A stretch of DNA of 64,000 nt from Methylobacterium organophilum (GTDB lineage Bacteria; Pseudomonadota; Alphaproteobacteria; Rhizobiales; Beijerinckiaceae), in NCBI RefSeq assembly GCF_022179465.1, contig NZ_BPQV01000010.1, forward strand, positions 1 through 64,000. The letters run 5' to 3'. Shown here piece after piece: positions 3,092 to 17,280 of the stretch (positions within the stretch are counted from its first letter, which is position 1; each line of letters begins with the position of its first letter). Below the pieces are notes generated by a model that saw nothing but the letters and a program-made list of their open reading frames with translations, did no database searches and was not told the DNA's origin. Made by a program: the position numbers and the translations under genes.

Positions 3092-4150
3092 TCAACGCTC
3101 TTGGTTGCTGCGATGTGCCAGCGCACGTGCCCGGCGCGGCGGCGCCTGCGCGAGGCGGATCCGTCCGTTCGGGCCGAGGCTGACCAGGACGCCCCGCAGG
3201 GTCCGGCGCAGGGCCCGTCCGTCTTCGAGGGCCGGAAGCAGCTCCGCGAGGACGAGCTGCTCCAGGCGCTCCAGGCGGCGCGGCACCGGATCCGGCTCCC
3301 CCGACGCCACGGCTTCGAGCGCCCGGTCGAACAGGCGGAGCAGGATCGCGGCGGGCTGGCCGCGCAGGACAGCCCCGTCGAGTTCGAGGCGGCCTTCGAG
3401 GGGATGGCCGGCGGGCTGCCGCTCCGCCCGGGCGAGCAGGGCCGCGGCGGCCGTGCCCAGGGCGGCCTCGTCGCGGGCGAGGCGCTCGGCGAGGCGCGCG
3501 AGGCGACTCGCGCTCAGGCCCTCGGCTGCGAGGGCCGGCATCAGGGCCCGGAGGCGGGCGCGGCCGAAGCGGGGATCGCTGTTGGAGGGATCGCGCAGGA
3601 AGGGCAGCGCCCAGGCCTCGCAATAGGCCACGAGATCGGCCTTCGCGATCCCGAGGAAGGGCCGGCCCAGGCCGATCCCCTCTCCCGCGGCCCGCAGCGG
3701 GGCCATGCCGGCGAGCCCAGCCGGGCCGCTTCCGGCGAGGAGGCGCATCAGCACCGTCTCGGCCTGGTCGTCGCGGGTATGGGCCGTGAGGACGAGATCC
3801 GCCCCGATCGCGGCGGCCTGGGCGAAGAGCAGACGGTAGCGCGCGGCACGGGCCGCCGCCTGGAGGCCGCCGCCCTCCGGGGGATCCTCCCAGACCAGCA
3901 CCCGGTGCGGCAGGCCGAGGCTCGCGGCGAGGCGCCCGACCGCCGCGGCCTCGGCCGCCGCTTCGGGCCGCAGGCGGTGATCGACGGTGGCGACGTGGAG
4001 CTCGGCCGTGCCGCGATGGCGGGCGGCGGCCTGGAGGAGCGCGGTCGAATCCGGGCCGCCGGAGACGGCGAGCAGGATCGTCCGGGTGGTCAGGAAGGGC
4101 GCGAGGGCGCGGGCGAGCCGGGCGTCGAGATCCGGCGCCGCGCCGTTCAC
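3092..4150 (-). CDS. tilS: tRNA(Ile)-lysidine synthetase
   Basis: 352 residues. TilS converts cytidine 34 of the CAU-anticodon tRNA-Ile to lysidine with ATP and lysine, changing its codon and amino-acid identity. The N-type ATP pyrophosphatase P-loop SGGPDS is at residues 30-35, and the later motifs of the family (VDHRLRPEAAAEA, AHTRDDQAETVLMRLLAGSG) are present. Start is GTG at 4150, chosen because it overlaps the cpoB stop as GTGA, implying translational coupling. The C-terminal part is short, as is common in Alphaproteobacteria. Confidence 0.95.
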   Translation of the reverse strand: MNGAAPDLDARLARALAPFLTTRTILLAVSGGPDSTALLQAAARHRGTAELHVATVDHRLRPEAAAEAAAVGRLAASLGLPHRVLVWEDPPEGGGLQAAARAARYRLLFAQAAAIGADLVLTAHTRDDQAETVLMRLLAGSGPAGLAGMAPLRAAGEGIGLGRPFLGIAKADLVAYCEAWALPFLRDPSNSDPRFGRARLRALMPALAAEGLSASRLARLAERLARDEAALGTAAAALLARAERQPAGHPLEGRLELDGAVLRGQPAAILLRLFDRALEAVASGEPDPVPRRLERLEQLVLAELLPALEDGRALRRTLRGVLVSLGPNGRIRLAQAPPRRARALAHRSNQER

Positions 4151-5151
4151 GTCGTGCAGCGCGCGCGCTTCTGCTCGCGCTCGACGCCCTGGCGCACGCC
4201 GGCGCCGGCGCTCGGGAACTTGCGCTCGACCTCGGCCAGGGTGGCGCAGGCCTGGGCCTTGGCGCCGAGCGCGGCCAGCGAGGCGCCGAGCTTCATCATC
4301 GCCTCCGGCGCGACTGGCGAATTGGCGTAGTCGGTCGAGACCTTCAGGAATTGCTCGGCCGCCTCGCGGTTGCGGTTGCGCTGCAGGTAGCTCTCGCCGA
4401 GCCAGTAGGTCGCCCTGGCGACGAGCTTGTCGCGGGGATGCGACTGGATGAACTGGCGCAGGCTCATCTCCGCCTGCTCGTATTGACGCTCGCGCACCAG
4501 GGTCGAGGCCGCCTCGAAATCGGCTTCCGCGTCGCCGCTGCCTGTGGCGGCGATGCTGGCCTTGGGCGGCGGCGGGCTGATCGCGCCGGTGGTCGGCACC
4601 CGCGCCGGGGGCGGCGACAGATCGACCGGGCCGCCGAGGCCGGGCGGGGGCAGATCGCCCTCTTCGTGCTCCGCATCGGGATCGGGCAGGGCGCCCTGCG
4701 GCAGGGGCTCGGCCCGGGCCACGGGCGTGGTCTCCAGCGGGGCGGAGGGCGTGGTGGTGCCGAGCTGGCGCGGGGCGCCGGGGGCACCGGGGTTCTGGCC
4801 GGGGTCGAAGGCGTCGCCGCGCTTGCCGGGCCGGCCCTCGCCGGGATTGGTGCCGTAGGGAGCGCCCCCCGAAGGCGAGGCCGCCGGGGCCGGCCCCTTG
4901 CGCGCACTGCCGCCGCCTTTGCTCTCCTGGAAGCGGAACTCGACATCCTCCTGGAACTTGCGCAGCTGTTCCTTGAGGGAGCGGTTCTCGTATTGCAGCT
5001 GCTCGATCTGGCCCGAGAGCTGGCGGGAGACGTTCTCCAGCCGGTTCAGGCGCACGATCAGATCAGCGGCATCCTGGGCCGAGGCGGGGCTCAGGCTCGC
5101 CCATCCGAGGCAGGTGGTCAGCAGCAGGCGGCGCAGCATGGGCATTGGCAC
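4147..5151 (-). CDS. cpoB: Tol-Pal system protein CpoB (YbgF)
   Basis: 334 residues. Periplasmic protein that links outer-membrane constriction by Tol-Pal to septal peptidoglycan synthesis. An N-terminal signal peptide ends near ASAQ (about 26). Next comes a trimerising coiled coil rich in Leu/Glu (about 30-75), a long Pro/Gly-rich linker (about 75-205), and TPR-like helices (about 206-325; segments such as FIQSHPRDKLVARATYWLGE). Start ATG 5151 is followed by in-frame ATG at 5139, which gives an equally good signal peptide. It sits between pal and tilS and overlaps tilS by 4 bases. Confidence 0.92.
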   Translation of the reverse strand: MPMPMLRRLLLTTCLGWASLSPASAQDAADLIVRLNRLENVSRQLSGQIEQLQYENRSLKEQLRKFQEDVEFRFQESKGGGSARKGPAPAASPSGGAPYGTNPGEGRPGKRGDAFDPGQNPGAPGAPRQLGTTTPSAPLETTPVARAEPLPQGALPDPDAEHEEGDLPPPGLGGPVDLSPPPARVPTTGAISPPPPKASIAATGSGDAEADFEAASTLVRERQYEQAEMSLRQFIQSHPRDKLVARATYWLGESYLQRNRNREAAEQFLKVSTDYANSPVAPEAMMKLGASLAALGAKAQACATLAEVERKFPSAGAGVRQGVEREQKRARCTT

Positions 5152-5205
5152 CGTGGATCGTCCGGGAAGGCGGGGCGTCGACCCGCCGCCCCTGCCCTAG
5201 CAAAT

Positions 5206-5234
5206 GCCCGCACCGCAGCAAACCCGGTGCGGGC
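5206..5234 (-). terminator. Hairpin downstream of pal
   Basis: A 9-bp perfect inverted repeat (5206-5214 with 5226-5234) lies between the pal stop and the cpoB start. Only a short ATTTG follows on the minus strand, so it may weaken read-through, set a processing boundary, or terminate part of the pal transcripts. Confidence 0.45.
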
Positions 5235-5263
5235 GGGTCGTTTCGGCCTCGGTCGCCGAGGCT

Positions 5264-5770
5264 TCAGGAGCCGGCGCCGCCGTCGAGGACGCTCACCGCG
5301 CGGCGGTTCTGCGACCAGCAGGAGATGTCGTTGCAGACCGCGACCGGGCGCTCCTTGCCGTAGGAGACGGTGCGGATCCGGCTCGCGGCGATGCCGCGGG
5401 AGGCGAGGTAGTCGTTGACCGCCTGCGCGCGCCGGGCGCCGAGGGAGAAGTTGTACTCGCGCGTGCCGCGCTCGTCGGCATGGCCCTCGATCAGGAAGGT
5501 GTAGCGCGGGTAGCGCTGCAGCCAGGAGGCCTGCTTGTCGAGGGTGGCGGTGGCGGTGGGCGTCAGGTCGGAGGAATCCGACTCGAAGAAGACGCGGTCG
5601 CCGACATTCACCACGAAGTCCTGCGGGCTGCCCGGACGGGCGGCACCGCCGTTGGCCCCGAAGGCGGAGGCGTCGGCGAGGTCCTTGTCGTTGGAGCAGG
5701 CGGCGACGCTGAGCGCGGCGCAGAGCGCGGCCGCCAGGGCCATCGCACGGGCATGCGCGGGTCTCGACAT
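5264..5770 (-). CDS. pal: Peptidoglycan-associated lipoprotein Pal
   Basis: 168 residues from ATG 5770, chosen because the signal peptide begins right there; the frame stays open upstream to 6442 but reads as Arg-rich noise. The lipobox VAAC puts the lipidated Cys at residue 25, so the mature protein is anchored in the outer membrane. An OmpA-like peptidoglycan-binding domain follows (about 55-165) with the diagnostic stretches IEGHADERGTREYN and LGARRAQAVNDYL. Pal ties the outer membrane to the wall and works with TolQRAB during division. No tolB lies upstream here, although tolB-pal is the usual order. Confidence 0.96.
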   Translation of the reverse strand: MSRPAHARAMALAAALCAALSVAACSNDKDLADASAFGANGGAARPGSPQDFVVNVGDRVFFESDSSDLTPTATATLDKQASWLQRYPRYTFLIEGHADERGTREYNFSLGARRAQAVNDYLASRGIAASRIRTVSYGKERPVAVCNDISCWSQNRRAVSVLDGGAGS

Positions 5771-6045
5771 GGGCTTCAATCTCCTGGAGGCGGCGGGCGC
5801 CGGAGAGGGCCGCCCCGTCACGTGTCTTCGTCCGCGGATTTCTAGTCTTGCACGGTTAAGCGAAGGTTCCGTCAACCTTGACGGTGCGGTGCCATCGCCC
5901 ACCGGCGCGCTTCGCGAAGTGTTCCCGCACACCACGGTGCCGCCGGTCGCTCCTGTTCGCCCGGCAATTGGGGCGAGGCCGCGGCGGGAGCGGTTCGGGC
6001 CGGACGAAGGCGCGGCATCGTTGCGCTGCGGCAACAGCGCGGATC

Positions 6046-6378
6046 TCAGGCCGCGCGCAGATCCGCGATGGCCCAGGTCGCCGCCTCCGCAGCCGCGACG
6101 GCGGCCTCGAGCGGCGCGGACAGGTCGCCGCCGCGCAGGCAGGCGCGTTCGAGATCGGCGCAGGCCTGCGAGAGCGGCAGGAAGCCGAGGGAGCCGCTGA
6201 CCGAGACCAGGGCATGGGCATCGGAGGAGAGCTGCGTCGTGTCCCGCGCGGCCGGCCGCAGGCGCCCGGCGATCTCGTGATCGAGCCGGGCGAGCAGGTC
6301 CATCAGCTTCGTGCGGCCGAACAGCTCTTCCAGCTCCGCCACGACCTCCCCGTCGAACACCGCGCCCTCGCGACGCAT
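6046..6378 (-). CDS. HPt-domain phosphotransfer protein
   Basis: 110 residues, mostly helical. The stretch around residues 53-66 (DAHALVSVSGSLGF) fits the HPt motif AHxLKGxxxxxG with the phospho-accepting His at residue 55; the usual Lys after it is replaced by Val. HPt proteins shuttle phosphoryl groups between response-regulator domains in multistep phosphorelays. It is transcribed away from a single-domain response regulator 107 bases off, which suggests (inference) that the two are partners. No kinase gene is nearby. Confidence 0.75.
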   Translation of the reverse strand: MRREGAVFDGEVVAELEELFGRTKLMDLLARLDHEIAGRLRPAARDTTQLSSDAHALVSVSGSLGFLPLSQACADLERACLRGGDLSAPLEAAVAAAEAATWAIADLRAA

Positions 6379-6485
6379 CGCCTGCTCCCGATTCCCGAAA
6401 GTCGGACTCAGGCGCGCGGGGCATTGAGAAAAGCTTAACCAATCCAGGTTGTGATCGATAAAATCACTTGCCTGCGGATCGTCGC

Positions 6486-14893: not shown

Positions 14894-15221
14894 GGGCGGG
14901 ACATGGTCGAAACTGAAAGAATTTTCAAGTTTCGGGTTGAGGTGGCGCCAGGCTCGGCCTTATCCACCCCCTCATCGCGACGCCGCACCTCCTGGAAGCG
15001 GACGGCGTCGCTCCACCGGCGCGGGCCGGTTGGCACTCGGTTATCAACGGCCAGCGAAGCCCCGAGCGCAAATTTATGACACGCCCGCGTCTCCCCTCGG
15101 CCCCGTTCGGACGGAGCATGGCATGAATCAGCACGACCTCAGCGTCGCGGCATTCGCCCGTCCGGAAGCGGATTGGCTTTGGCCAGAGGGTCGAGTTCGC
15201 GGCATGCGTCGCGCGGGCCGC
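14894..15221. other. Intergenic stretch without a recognised gene
   Basis: 328 bases between the XRE regulator (minus) and the Y-RNA-like element (plus). It should contain the XRE promoter in its first part, where there is an AT-richer patch (about 14905-14935). A short frame starting ATGAATCAGCAC at 15123 runs into the RNA region and matches nothing known. If the upstream part of the rsr gene once lay here it is no longer recognisable. Confidence 0.5.
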
Positions 15222-15306
15222 TGACGAACGGTTCTCTTTGGGTAGAGGAGCCCTCGGGCTCCGGGGTTCGATCCCCCACGGCTCGCGAGAGCCGCTCCGT
15301 TCGTCG
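15222..15306 (+). ncRNA. Y-RNA-like (YrlA-type) tRNA-mimicking RNA
   Basis: The ends pair in a long stem: GACGAACGG (15223-15231) with CCGTTCGTC (15297-15305), plus a U-G pair outside. Inside lie four small hairpins. A D-arm-like one has CTCT/AGAG (15234-15237, 15244-15247) around a loop with GGGT. A short anticodon-like one is GAGCC/GGCTC (15248-15261). A T-arm-like one is GGGG-TTCGATC-CCCC (15263-15277) with the invariant T-loop bases. The last is a CGGCTC/GAGCCG stem closed by a GCGA tetraloop (15279-15294). Bacterial Y RNAs, partners of Ro60-type proteins, have exactly this design of paired ends plus a tRNA-like module. It lies 23 bases before an rsr fragment on the same strand, which strongly supports the call. 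The anticodon arm is too short for a normal tRNA. Confidence 0.65.
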
Positions 15307-15328
15307 TCCCATGTCCGCGCGGTCGTAA

Positions 15329-15878
15329 GAGCCCACGGGCCGGCGGATCGTCCTCGCGCTCGACGTGCCGGGCTCGGTGGCGACCGGCTCGATTGCCGAG
15401 AGCGGGCTGACCCCGCGGGAGGCGGCCGCTGCCATGGCGCTCGTCACCGCGGCCACCGAGGAGCACTGGCAGGTCGTCGGCTTCACCGCCGTGGGCCGCC
15501 GCTCCTGGAGCCAGGGCGCGGCGCTCACCCCGCTGCCGATCGGACCGTCGATGCGGCTCGACCAGGCGGTGGAGGCGACCGCGAACCTGCCCTTCGGCAG
15601 GACGGATTGCTCGCTGCCGATGGGTGGGCGCTGGAGCACGGCGTCAAGGCCGATGCGTTCGTGGTCTACACGGACTCGGAGACCTGGGCGGGCCCCGTGC
15701 ATCCGGTGCAGGCGCTGCGGACGTACCGGGAGAAGACCGCATCGCCGCGAAGCTCGTGGTCGTGGGGCTCGTCTCCAATGGCTTCAGCATCGCCGATCCG
15801 GAGGATCCCGGCATGCTCGACGTGGTCGGCTTCGACACGGCGGCGCCGGCGCTGATCGCGGATTTCATCCGCGGTTGA
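15329..15878 (+). pseudogene. rsr: Remnant of rsr (Ro60/TROVE protein), C-terminal vWA part
   Basis: Three consecutive reading frames join into a continuous match to the C-terminal von Willebrand A-like domain of bacterial Ro60 (Rsr) proteins. Frame one, from 15329 to about 15622, includes [26 protein letters not shown] and [12 protein letters not shown]. Frame two, about 15625-15738, includes [20 protein letters not shown]. Frame three, about 15740 to the TGA at 15876, includes [16 protein letters not shown] and [18 protein letters not shown]. Each junction fits a single-base deletion. The metal-site motif DxSGS reads DVPGSV, a stop lies at 15326, and the whole RNA-binding TROVE ring is absent. 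It cannot make a working Rsr. The intact protein would bind Y RNA and act in RNA decay and stress survival. Confidence 0.85.
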
Positions 15879-15972: not shown

Positions 15973-17280
15973 CTAGACCAGAATCGGCAGGGCCTCCTGG
16001 TCCTCCATCCCGAAGACGCGCCGGTAGCGCTCGATCTCGGCGGCCGGGCCCTGGGCCTTGGTGGGGTTGTCGGAGATCTTGACCGTGGGGCGGCCGTCGG
16101 CCTCGATCACCTTGCAGACGATGGAGATCGGGTCCAGCCGTCCGTCCGGCACCAGGCCGCGGAAGTCGTTGGTGAGCAGGGTGCCCCAGCCGTAGCCGAG
16201 GCGCATGCGCCCGTGGAAATGGGCGTGGATCCGCTCGATGCCCTCGATGTCGAGGCCGTCCGAGAAGATCGCGAGCTTGCCCGCCGGGTCGCAGCCGCGG
16301 GCGCGCCAGAAGGCCATGGCCTCCTCGCCCCCGGCGATCGGCTCCTTCGAATCGATGCGGATGCCGGTCCAGGCGGTAAGCCAGTCGGGGGCGTTGGCGA
16401 GGAAGCCGCTGGTGCCGTAGGTGTCCGGCAGCGCCACCAGGAGGTTGCCTGCGTAGTCCTGCTGCCAGTCGGCCAGCACGGCGTAGGGTGCGCGGGCGAG
16501 CGCCGCGTCGTCATCGCCTGCGAGCGCCGCATAGACCATCGGCAGCTCGTGGGCGTTGGTGCCCACCGCCTCGACCTCGCGGCGCTGGGCGATGAGGCAG
16601 TTGGAGGTGCCGAGGAATTTCGCGCCGAGGCCCTCGTTCATGGCCTGCACGCACCAGTCCTGCCACAGGAAGCCGTGGCGCCGCCGCGTGCCGAAATCCG
16701 CGATGGACAGGTCCGGCAGCCGGCGCAGGCGCTCGATCTTCTCCCAGACCCGGGTCATGGCCCTCGCATAGAGCACCTGCAGCTCGAAGCGGCCCATGTC
16801 GCGCAGGGTGGCACGGGAGCGCAGCTCGTTGAGGATGGCGAGGGCCGGCACCTCCCACATCGTGGTCTCGAGCCAGCGGCCGTGGAAGGTGAGGACGTAT
16901 TGCCCGTTCCGCCGCGTCAGCTCGTAATCCGGCAGCTGGAAGGTCTCGAACCAGGCGACGAACTCCGCCGAGAACATCTGGCGCTTGCCGTAGAAGCTGT
17001 TGCCGCGCAGCCAGGTCGCCTCGCCGCGGCTGAGCCGGAGGGTGCGGGCGTGGTCGAGCTGCTCGCGCAGCTGGCCCTCCTCGATCTCGTCGGCGATCCG
17101 GATCCGGCTGGTGCGGTTCTGGATGCCGAAGGTGACCGCGACCTCGGCATGCCGGCGCAGGATCGTCTGCGCCATCAGGAGCTTGTAGAAATCGGTGTCG
17201 AGGAGCGACCGCACGATCGGGTCGATGCGGAAATTGTGGTTGTAGACCCGCGTCGCGATGTCGAGCATCGATGCCGTCAC
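15973..17280 (-). CDS. pncB: Nicotinate phosphoribosyltransferase
   Basis: 435 residues. Makes nicotinate mononucleotide from nicotinate and PRPP in the NAD salvage (Preiss-Handler) route, cytosolic. Family blocks are clear: [19 protein letters not shown] near residue 25, [14 protein letters not shown] and [24 protein letters not shown] (about 205-245), and the PRPP-binding [13 protein letters not shown] followed by [11 protein letters not shown] (about 337-372). The start at 17280 ([15 protein letters not shown]) has a second ATG four codons on; either is possible. Monocistronic by spacing. Confidence 0.96.

Follow-up and report, generated by a model that had tools for sequence, protein, structure and literature searches.

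The window analyzed here is a stretch of 64,000 nucleotides of the Methylobacterium organophilum genome (contig NZ_BPQV01000010.1, positions 1 to 64,000 of the forward strand), and near 15 kb it carries a Y RNA unit beside the remains of rsr, the Ro60 gene. The unit with its flanking helix occupies 15207..15323 (+); the whole span was matched by two covariance models (R2 and R3, described below), and orthologues were found in three genomes. It is followed by a deletion junction (15321..15331, +) and by the rsr relic (15344..15878, +), in which a vWA_Ro60 domain persists with two one-base frameshifts and the TROVE domain is absent. An eroded, shorter Y RNA-like unit lies upstream (15015..15093, +; R2 18.1 bits, E = 0.077 in the window), its counterpart having a 9-bp stem in all three relatives, and the neighboring gene at 15973-17280 has its closest named matches in Methylobacterium and Methylorubrum.

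The ends of the RNA are paired in two successive helices. The 5′ strand of the outer helix (15211..15218, +) pairs with its 3′ strand (15313..15320, +), which ends at the deletion breakpoint; 8/8 pairs are present in each of the four window-type sequences and are invariant among them, covariation of this helix being seen in other Y RNA types. The inner (terminal) stem joins 15223..15231 (+) to 15297..15305 (+) with 9/9 pairs (8/9 in relatives), and the bases between the two helices number four on one side (C first) and seven on the other. Looked at as a Ro60 site, the paired ends hold two complete helices with unpaired bases, including a C, between them (exact bulge read by eye), and C15219, which adjoins the 5′ strand of the outer helix, could be the bulged C of such a site. 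The earlier note had given the RNA as 15222-15306; its stems were correctly placed, but the unit is longer (~15207-15323) and the Ro60-site-like outer helix had been missed.

Within the inner stem lies a tRNA-like head. An anticodon-arm-like hairpin (15247..15262, +; 6/6 pairs, three double compensatory changes versus relatives) precedes a T-arm-like hairpin (15263..15277, +) with the 7-nt loop TTCGATC, which in turn precedes an acceptor-like hairpin closed by GCGA (15279..15294, +; 6/6 pairs, one double change). The last of these was aligned by both R2 and R3 to the acceptor stem of the Y RNA types 1 and 2 described below; only two bases, without a D-arm, separate it from the 3′ stem. The perfect 9-bp stem, anticodon-like hairpin, T-arm and GCGA hairpin that had been read from the letters lie in the sequence at these coordinates, and the minimum-energy fold contains them too. 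A D-arm-like hairpin had also been proposed, and one is present (15234..15247, +), but it is weak (only 3 bp in the minimum-energy fold) and its register is not conserved, the relatives folding another hairpin register there; it is the weakest part of the structure claim. The proposed permuted tRNA mimic fits the separate tetraloop hairpin after the T-arm, which alignment places on the acceptor stem of YrlA-like RNAs.

Matches to vWA_Ro60 (PF25045) fall in three frames at 15344-15869, and with the TROVE domain gone they uphold the earlier claim of a dead Ro60 gene adjoining the RNA. Alignment of the relic to intact relatives showed a changed motif in the vWA part, which we take to be the metal site of vWA domains. 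At the junction, multiple alignments jump (L042 from 4754 to 6270, L044 from 4858 to 6379, L043 from 4696 to 6313), corresponding to ~1.5-1.6 kb lost relative to genomes G054, G092 and G009. The missing stretch runs from the end of the window RNA to the start of the vWA domain; in these relatives it includes the beginning of rsr, accompanied by one type 2 and one type 1 Y RNA in G054 and G092, and by a type 1 RNA and a type 2-like unit of less regular form in G009. The outer helix ends no more than ~10 bases from the breakpoint (15320-15331), so the deletion only narrowly missed the window RNA. The frameshifts could be errors of the draft sequence; the deletion is less easily explained in this way. 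The suggestion that an Rsr might be encoded elsewhere was not borne out: TROVE had no match in the window genome (5.06 Mb draft), where vWA_Ro60 matched in the relic only and no second Rsr gene was found.

Evidence for the Y RNA structure

Folding gave an ambiguous picture of the RNA. Only 2 of 200 dinucleotide shuffles of 15215-15315 were as stable (z = −3.0), and equal or greater stability was reached by 185 of 2,000 random 111-nt pieces of the G+C-rich window. Perfect 9-bp stems closing 70-99 nt occur 86 times on both strands of the window, two of them around a GTTCRA motif. Because equally stable folds and such stems are common in the window, stems and fold alone are little proof, and the Y RNA structure is accepted here because of comparison: orthologues, compensatory changes and an independent model match.

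Orthologues of the RNA were found by blastn among 112 genus genomes (window genome aside) in G009, G054 and G092, with 82% identity over 111 nt, and a further 28-nt match in G090; all three orthologues adjoin intact rsr. The compensatory changes that had been called for in related genomes are there: relative to these three rsr-bearing relatives the window RNA shows four double changes, in three of the six anticodon-like pairs and in one acceptor-like pair, as counted from only four window-type sequences, three of which are nearly identical. The RNA had been described as structurally intact, and all pairs of its five main helices are kept in the window; one A-C position of the relatives is an A-T pair there.

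Identification as a Y RNA is borne out by genus covariance models built without the window RNA. R2, made from 24 type 1 (YrlA-like) RNAs of other loci and including neither the window RNA nor its orthologues, gave it a score of 55.4 bits in the window (E = 1.3e-9) and, across the window genome, returned it as the sole match at E up to 0.01. R3, a model of type 2 Y RNAs, scored it at 47.6 bits in the window (E = 3.8e-8); in a genus-wide run with strict filters R3 gave no match in the window genome, though the window RNA had matched in the window alone. R1, a window-type model from four sequences, matched 16 of 112 genus genomes, namely the four window-type genomes (>100 bits) and twelve others (31-49 bits), all of which have rsr except G044. 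Assignment to the YrlA type specifically does not hold. The YrlA covariance model proposed as a check, RF02553, found nothing in 15000-15500 at E up to 10, the window RNA was not among its six matches in the genome, and the whole window had no Rfam match at gathering score; moreover, no D-arm follows the acceptor hairpin, so the order is not that of YrlA. A consensus scan for a promoter or terminator, which says little, found none.

Y RNA rows preceding rsr

In the genus, a two-helix frame is repeated up to five times, with different heads, upstream of intact rsr and in the same direction, and R2 matches number one to five per genome in the 30 genomes with real matches. Type 1 has the order T-arm, acceptor hairpin with tetraloop, D-arm, which is the YrlA order. 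Its pattern matched 26 of 28 loci, including L013, which lacks a proper T-arm; the alignment comprised 24 sequences, leaving out L013 (no T-arm or 5′ flank delimited) and L024 (5′ end cut wrongly). In the 12 of 28 loci that were scanned with it, Rfam YrlA scored type 1 copies at ~42-52 bits, below its gathering score of 69. Across the 24 sequences 94.8% of cells were paired, eight pairs had changed on both sides (reached by 14 of 500 shuffles), and the covariation score of 0.179 against a shuffle mean of 0.093 was reached by none of 500 shuffles. Type 2 has the order D 3′ half, anticodon-like arm, T-arm, acceptor hairpin, D 5′ half, and was found in 24 of 28 loci, with no match in L006, L015, L016 and L033. 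Here 92.0% of cells were paired, seven pairs showed double changes (17 of 500 shuffles) and the covariation score was 0.114 against 0.080 in shuffles (0 of 500 reaching it); the number of further pair types was no better than in shuffles (127 of 500). The D-stem of type 2 rests on conservation and not on covariation, because its four pairs are invariant in all 24 sequences.

Both types share with the window RNA an outer helix, an inner stem, a T-arm and an acceptor hairpin. The window type has the order D-like, anticodon-like, T, acceptor, whereas the D-stem of type 2 would pair across the two ends of the head. On our interpretation, the Ro60 handle replaces the anticodon arm in type 1, sits inside the D-loop in type 2, where the two ends of the head would together form the D-stem, and lies between acceptor and D-arm in the window type. 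We consider it an even call whether the Methylobacterium rsr rows, of up to five Y RNAs, permute one tRNA circularly in different ways on a shared Ro60-binding handle and can outlive the Ro60 gene.

The rows hold other elements as well. A further head type (~113 nt; L020 1124-1236) and a minimal type consisting of T-arm and hairpin only (L020 1294-1357) both have counterparts in other loci. The row is preceded by a conserved short open frame or DNA motif (15123-15224, +; MNQHDLSVAAFARP..., core VAAFARP), found by pattern in 23 of 30 loci with variability of 0.17 (codon position 1), 0.115 (position 2) and 0.213 (position 3); it may be either a small protein or a regulatory DNA motif. Downstream of rsr in L007, several microRNA hairpin models matched 3312-3424 below their cut-offs, and because they matched on both strands this segment is probably a long inverted repeat.

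Loss of rsr and the fate of the RNAs

Of the 112 genus genomes, 28 matched TROVE, always with an open frame no shorter than 543 aa; vWA_Ro60 matched those 28 and the window genome. In a genus-wide run at E up to 0.01 with strict filters, by which very divergent or weak copies could be missed, R2 matched 41 of 112 genomes: every one of the 28 rsr-bearing genomes, the window genome, G044, and 11 that lack rsr. The match is by construction in the 24 rsr-bearing genomes that supplied R2 sequences; the four independent ones (G014, G040, G098 and G100) also match. The 11 apparent orphans (E from 3e-4 to 7e-3) were rejected, being partial matches that lie on tRNA genes in 11/11 cases, ten of them on tandem tRNA pairs; R3 likewise matched 15 rsr-less genomes, every time (15/15) over tRNA genes. 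Tandem tRNA genes (L127-L132, L231-L243) are false positives for permuted models because neighboring T- and D-arms adjoin. Under the same strict filters, then, R2 found a full-length Y RNA match in none of the 82 genus genomes without TROVE, vWA_Ro60 or the G044 remnant. At family level, TROVE matched 26 of 398 genomes searched; 15 of the 26 belong to other genera, and for five of those 15 the match was below the family cut-off. All 15 non-genus TROVE loci have an R2 match at E up to 5.2e-6 (three partial), none of which lies on an ARAGORN tRNA. At some family loci, for example L222 and L225, R2 matches follow TROVE downstream, on the same strand.

G044 represents a second loss of rsr. Its row (L125) shows 100% identity with Methylorubrum rhodesianum DSM 5687 over 1,100 bp and contains five Y RNAs followed by the first part of rsr only, ~1.49 kb being missing relative to G063; TROVE and vWA_Ro60 have no match there because the ~82 rsr codons that remain are too few. 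The G044 Y RNAs carry 14 private changes in 608 sites, compared with 6-17 in seven rsr-bearing genomes, and the rsr remnant carries eight in 249 sites, of which six fall in first or second codon positions, compared with 0-8 in rsr-bearing genomes. In the window relic, differences from L020 are distributed 17:13:45 over codon positions 1:2:3 (20:15:48 for intact L008 versus L020). Because these differences still concentrate at third positions, the death of rsr seems recent. Changes private to the window relic are distributed 9:4:9, against 4:4:7 for those common to three relatives, which hints at mildly relaxed constraint. Selection on the RNAs after rsr loss was sought by these codon-position and private-change counts, and they indicated only recent losses. 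Two separate deletions, in the window genome and in G044, have left Y RNAs behind, and both look recent. Since the loss is recent, an intact RNA is no proof of selection.

Very probably, the window element is a recently orphaned bacterial Y RNA gene from the row preceding rsr, one not proven to be Rsr-independent. An Rsr-independent function of the RNA, newly acquired or retained, such as binding PNPase or a tRNA enzyme through its head, with selection since rsr died, is unlikely in our estimation; the earlier note had raised such a role. The five main helices are fully paired, and the A-T pair in place of the relatives' A-C could also reflect continued selection; the breakpoint falls directly after the outer helix, the short Y-like unit upstream has eroded and the window RNA has not, G044 keeps five Y RNAs beside its cut rsr with no excess of private changes, and a PNPase gene is present in the window genome. 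Against this, the 82 rsr-less genomes hold no full-length match (E up to 0.01, strict filters), Ro60 loss lowers Y RNA levels in the organisms tested, according to PMC4726728, and the largely gene-like relic and the G044 remnant, whose 8/249 private changes fall within the range of rsr-bearing genomes, leave little time for decay. We hold it a shade less probable still that the element is a structured cis-acting leader of rsr, bound by Rsr to control its own expression and never a free RNA. Units in the genus do lie upstream of rsr in the same direction, but self-contained closing helices, a copy number varying from one to five and several architectures would be expected of separate RNAs, and some family loci place their matches downstream of TROVE. 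Hardly credible is a tRNA pseudogene, an odd tRNA-Sec or a chance fold of G+C-rich DNA: stems of this length are common in the window and Rfam tRNA-Sec reaches 25.2 bits, but ARAGORN finds no tRNA or tmRNA gene in the window, and the orthologues with compensatory changes, the model matches and the genus-wide link to rsr all argue otherwise. The tRNA-Sec identity was itself rejected, its score being weak (cut-off 47 bits) and the relatives incompatible with it.

In relatives with rsr, the double-helical end would hold the Ro60 ring, as reported for Deinococcus, and the tRNA-like head would gate that ring or tether PNPase. In the window genome, as comparison shows, ~1.5 kb right after the RNA has gone, together with the two downstream Y RNAs and the TROVE domain, leaving what is presumably a recent orphan that still folds and has lost its stabilizing partner. 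Such an RNA is probably scarce or quickly degraded, with decay of the gene to follow, because Ro60 stabilizes its Y RNAs.

To our knowledge, the reasons why a tRNA-like RNA is needed by the Ro60 ring, and why some bacteria have several, are open. In the rows, a single organism combines several heads with the same handle. Two natural genomes, including that of a named culture-collection strain, have lost the handle-binding protein and kept the RNAs. Together, rows and losses allow direct tests of Y RNA stability, modification and function in the absence of Ro60, as well as of the importance of individual arms of the tRNA mimic; if the reading as a permutation series is true, natural Ro60 knock-outs are already given.

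Relation to known Y RNA systems

Ro60 binds the lower stem of Y RNAs and stabilizes them, as described in PMC4726728 and PMC4030889. The vertebrate Ro60 site is given there as a seven-pair helix with one bulged C and a three-base bulge opposite (PMC4726728), and bacterial Y RNAs reportedly retain the bulged C (PMC4030889); the outer helix of the window RNA and the unpaired bases next to it, with the bulge read by eye, resemble this site. In Deinococcus, Rsr, Y RNA and PNPase form the complex RYPER (PMC8394870), in which Rsr is reported to hold the helical end of the Y RNA and the tRNA-like head to gate the ring or tether PNPase (PMC8394870, PMC7790460). The likeness of the window locus to the D. 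radiodurans complex would lie in the expected partners and logic, the genome having a PNPase gene; because Rsr is broken, a RYPER-like complex cannot form there.

Superposition of a bacterial Y RNA (6CU1) on tRNA with circular permutation is already in print (PMC11472068). Among the matches listed, judged by title and start of abstract, no paper pointed to rows or head types of Methylobacterium Y RNAs, which the main bacterial Y RNA papers may nevertheless describe. With YrlA (RF02553; Salmonella, Mycobacterium; 6CU1) the window RNA shares paired ends, a T-arm followed by a closed acceptor-like hairpin and a gene beside rsr. It differs in having neither a D-arm after the acceptor hairpin nor an Rfam YrlA match, and in carrying its anticodon-like and weak D-like hairpins before the T-arm.
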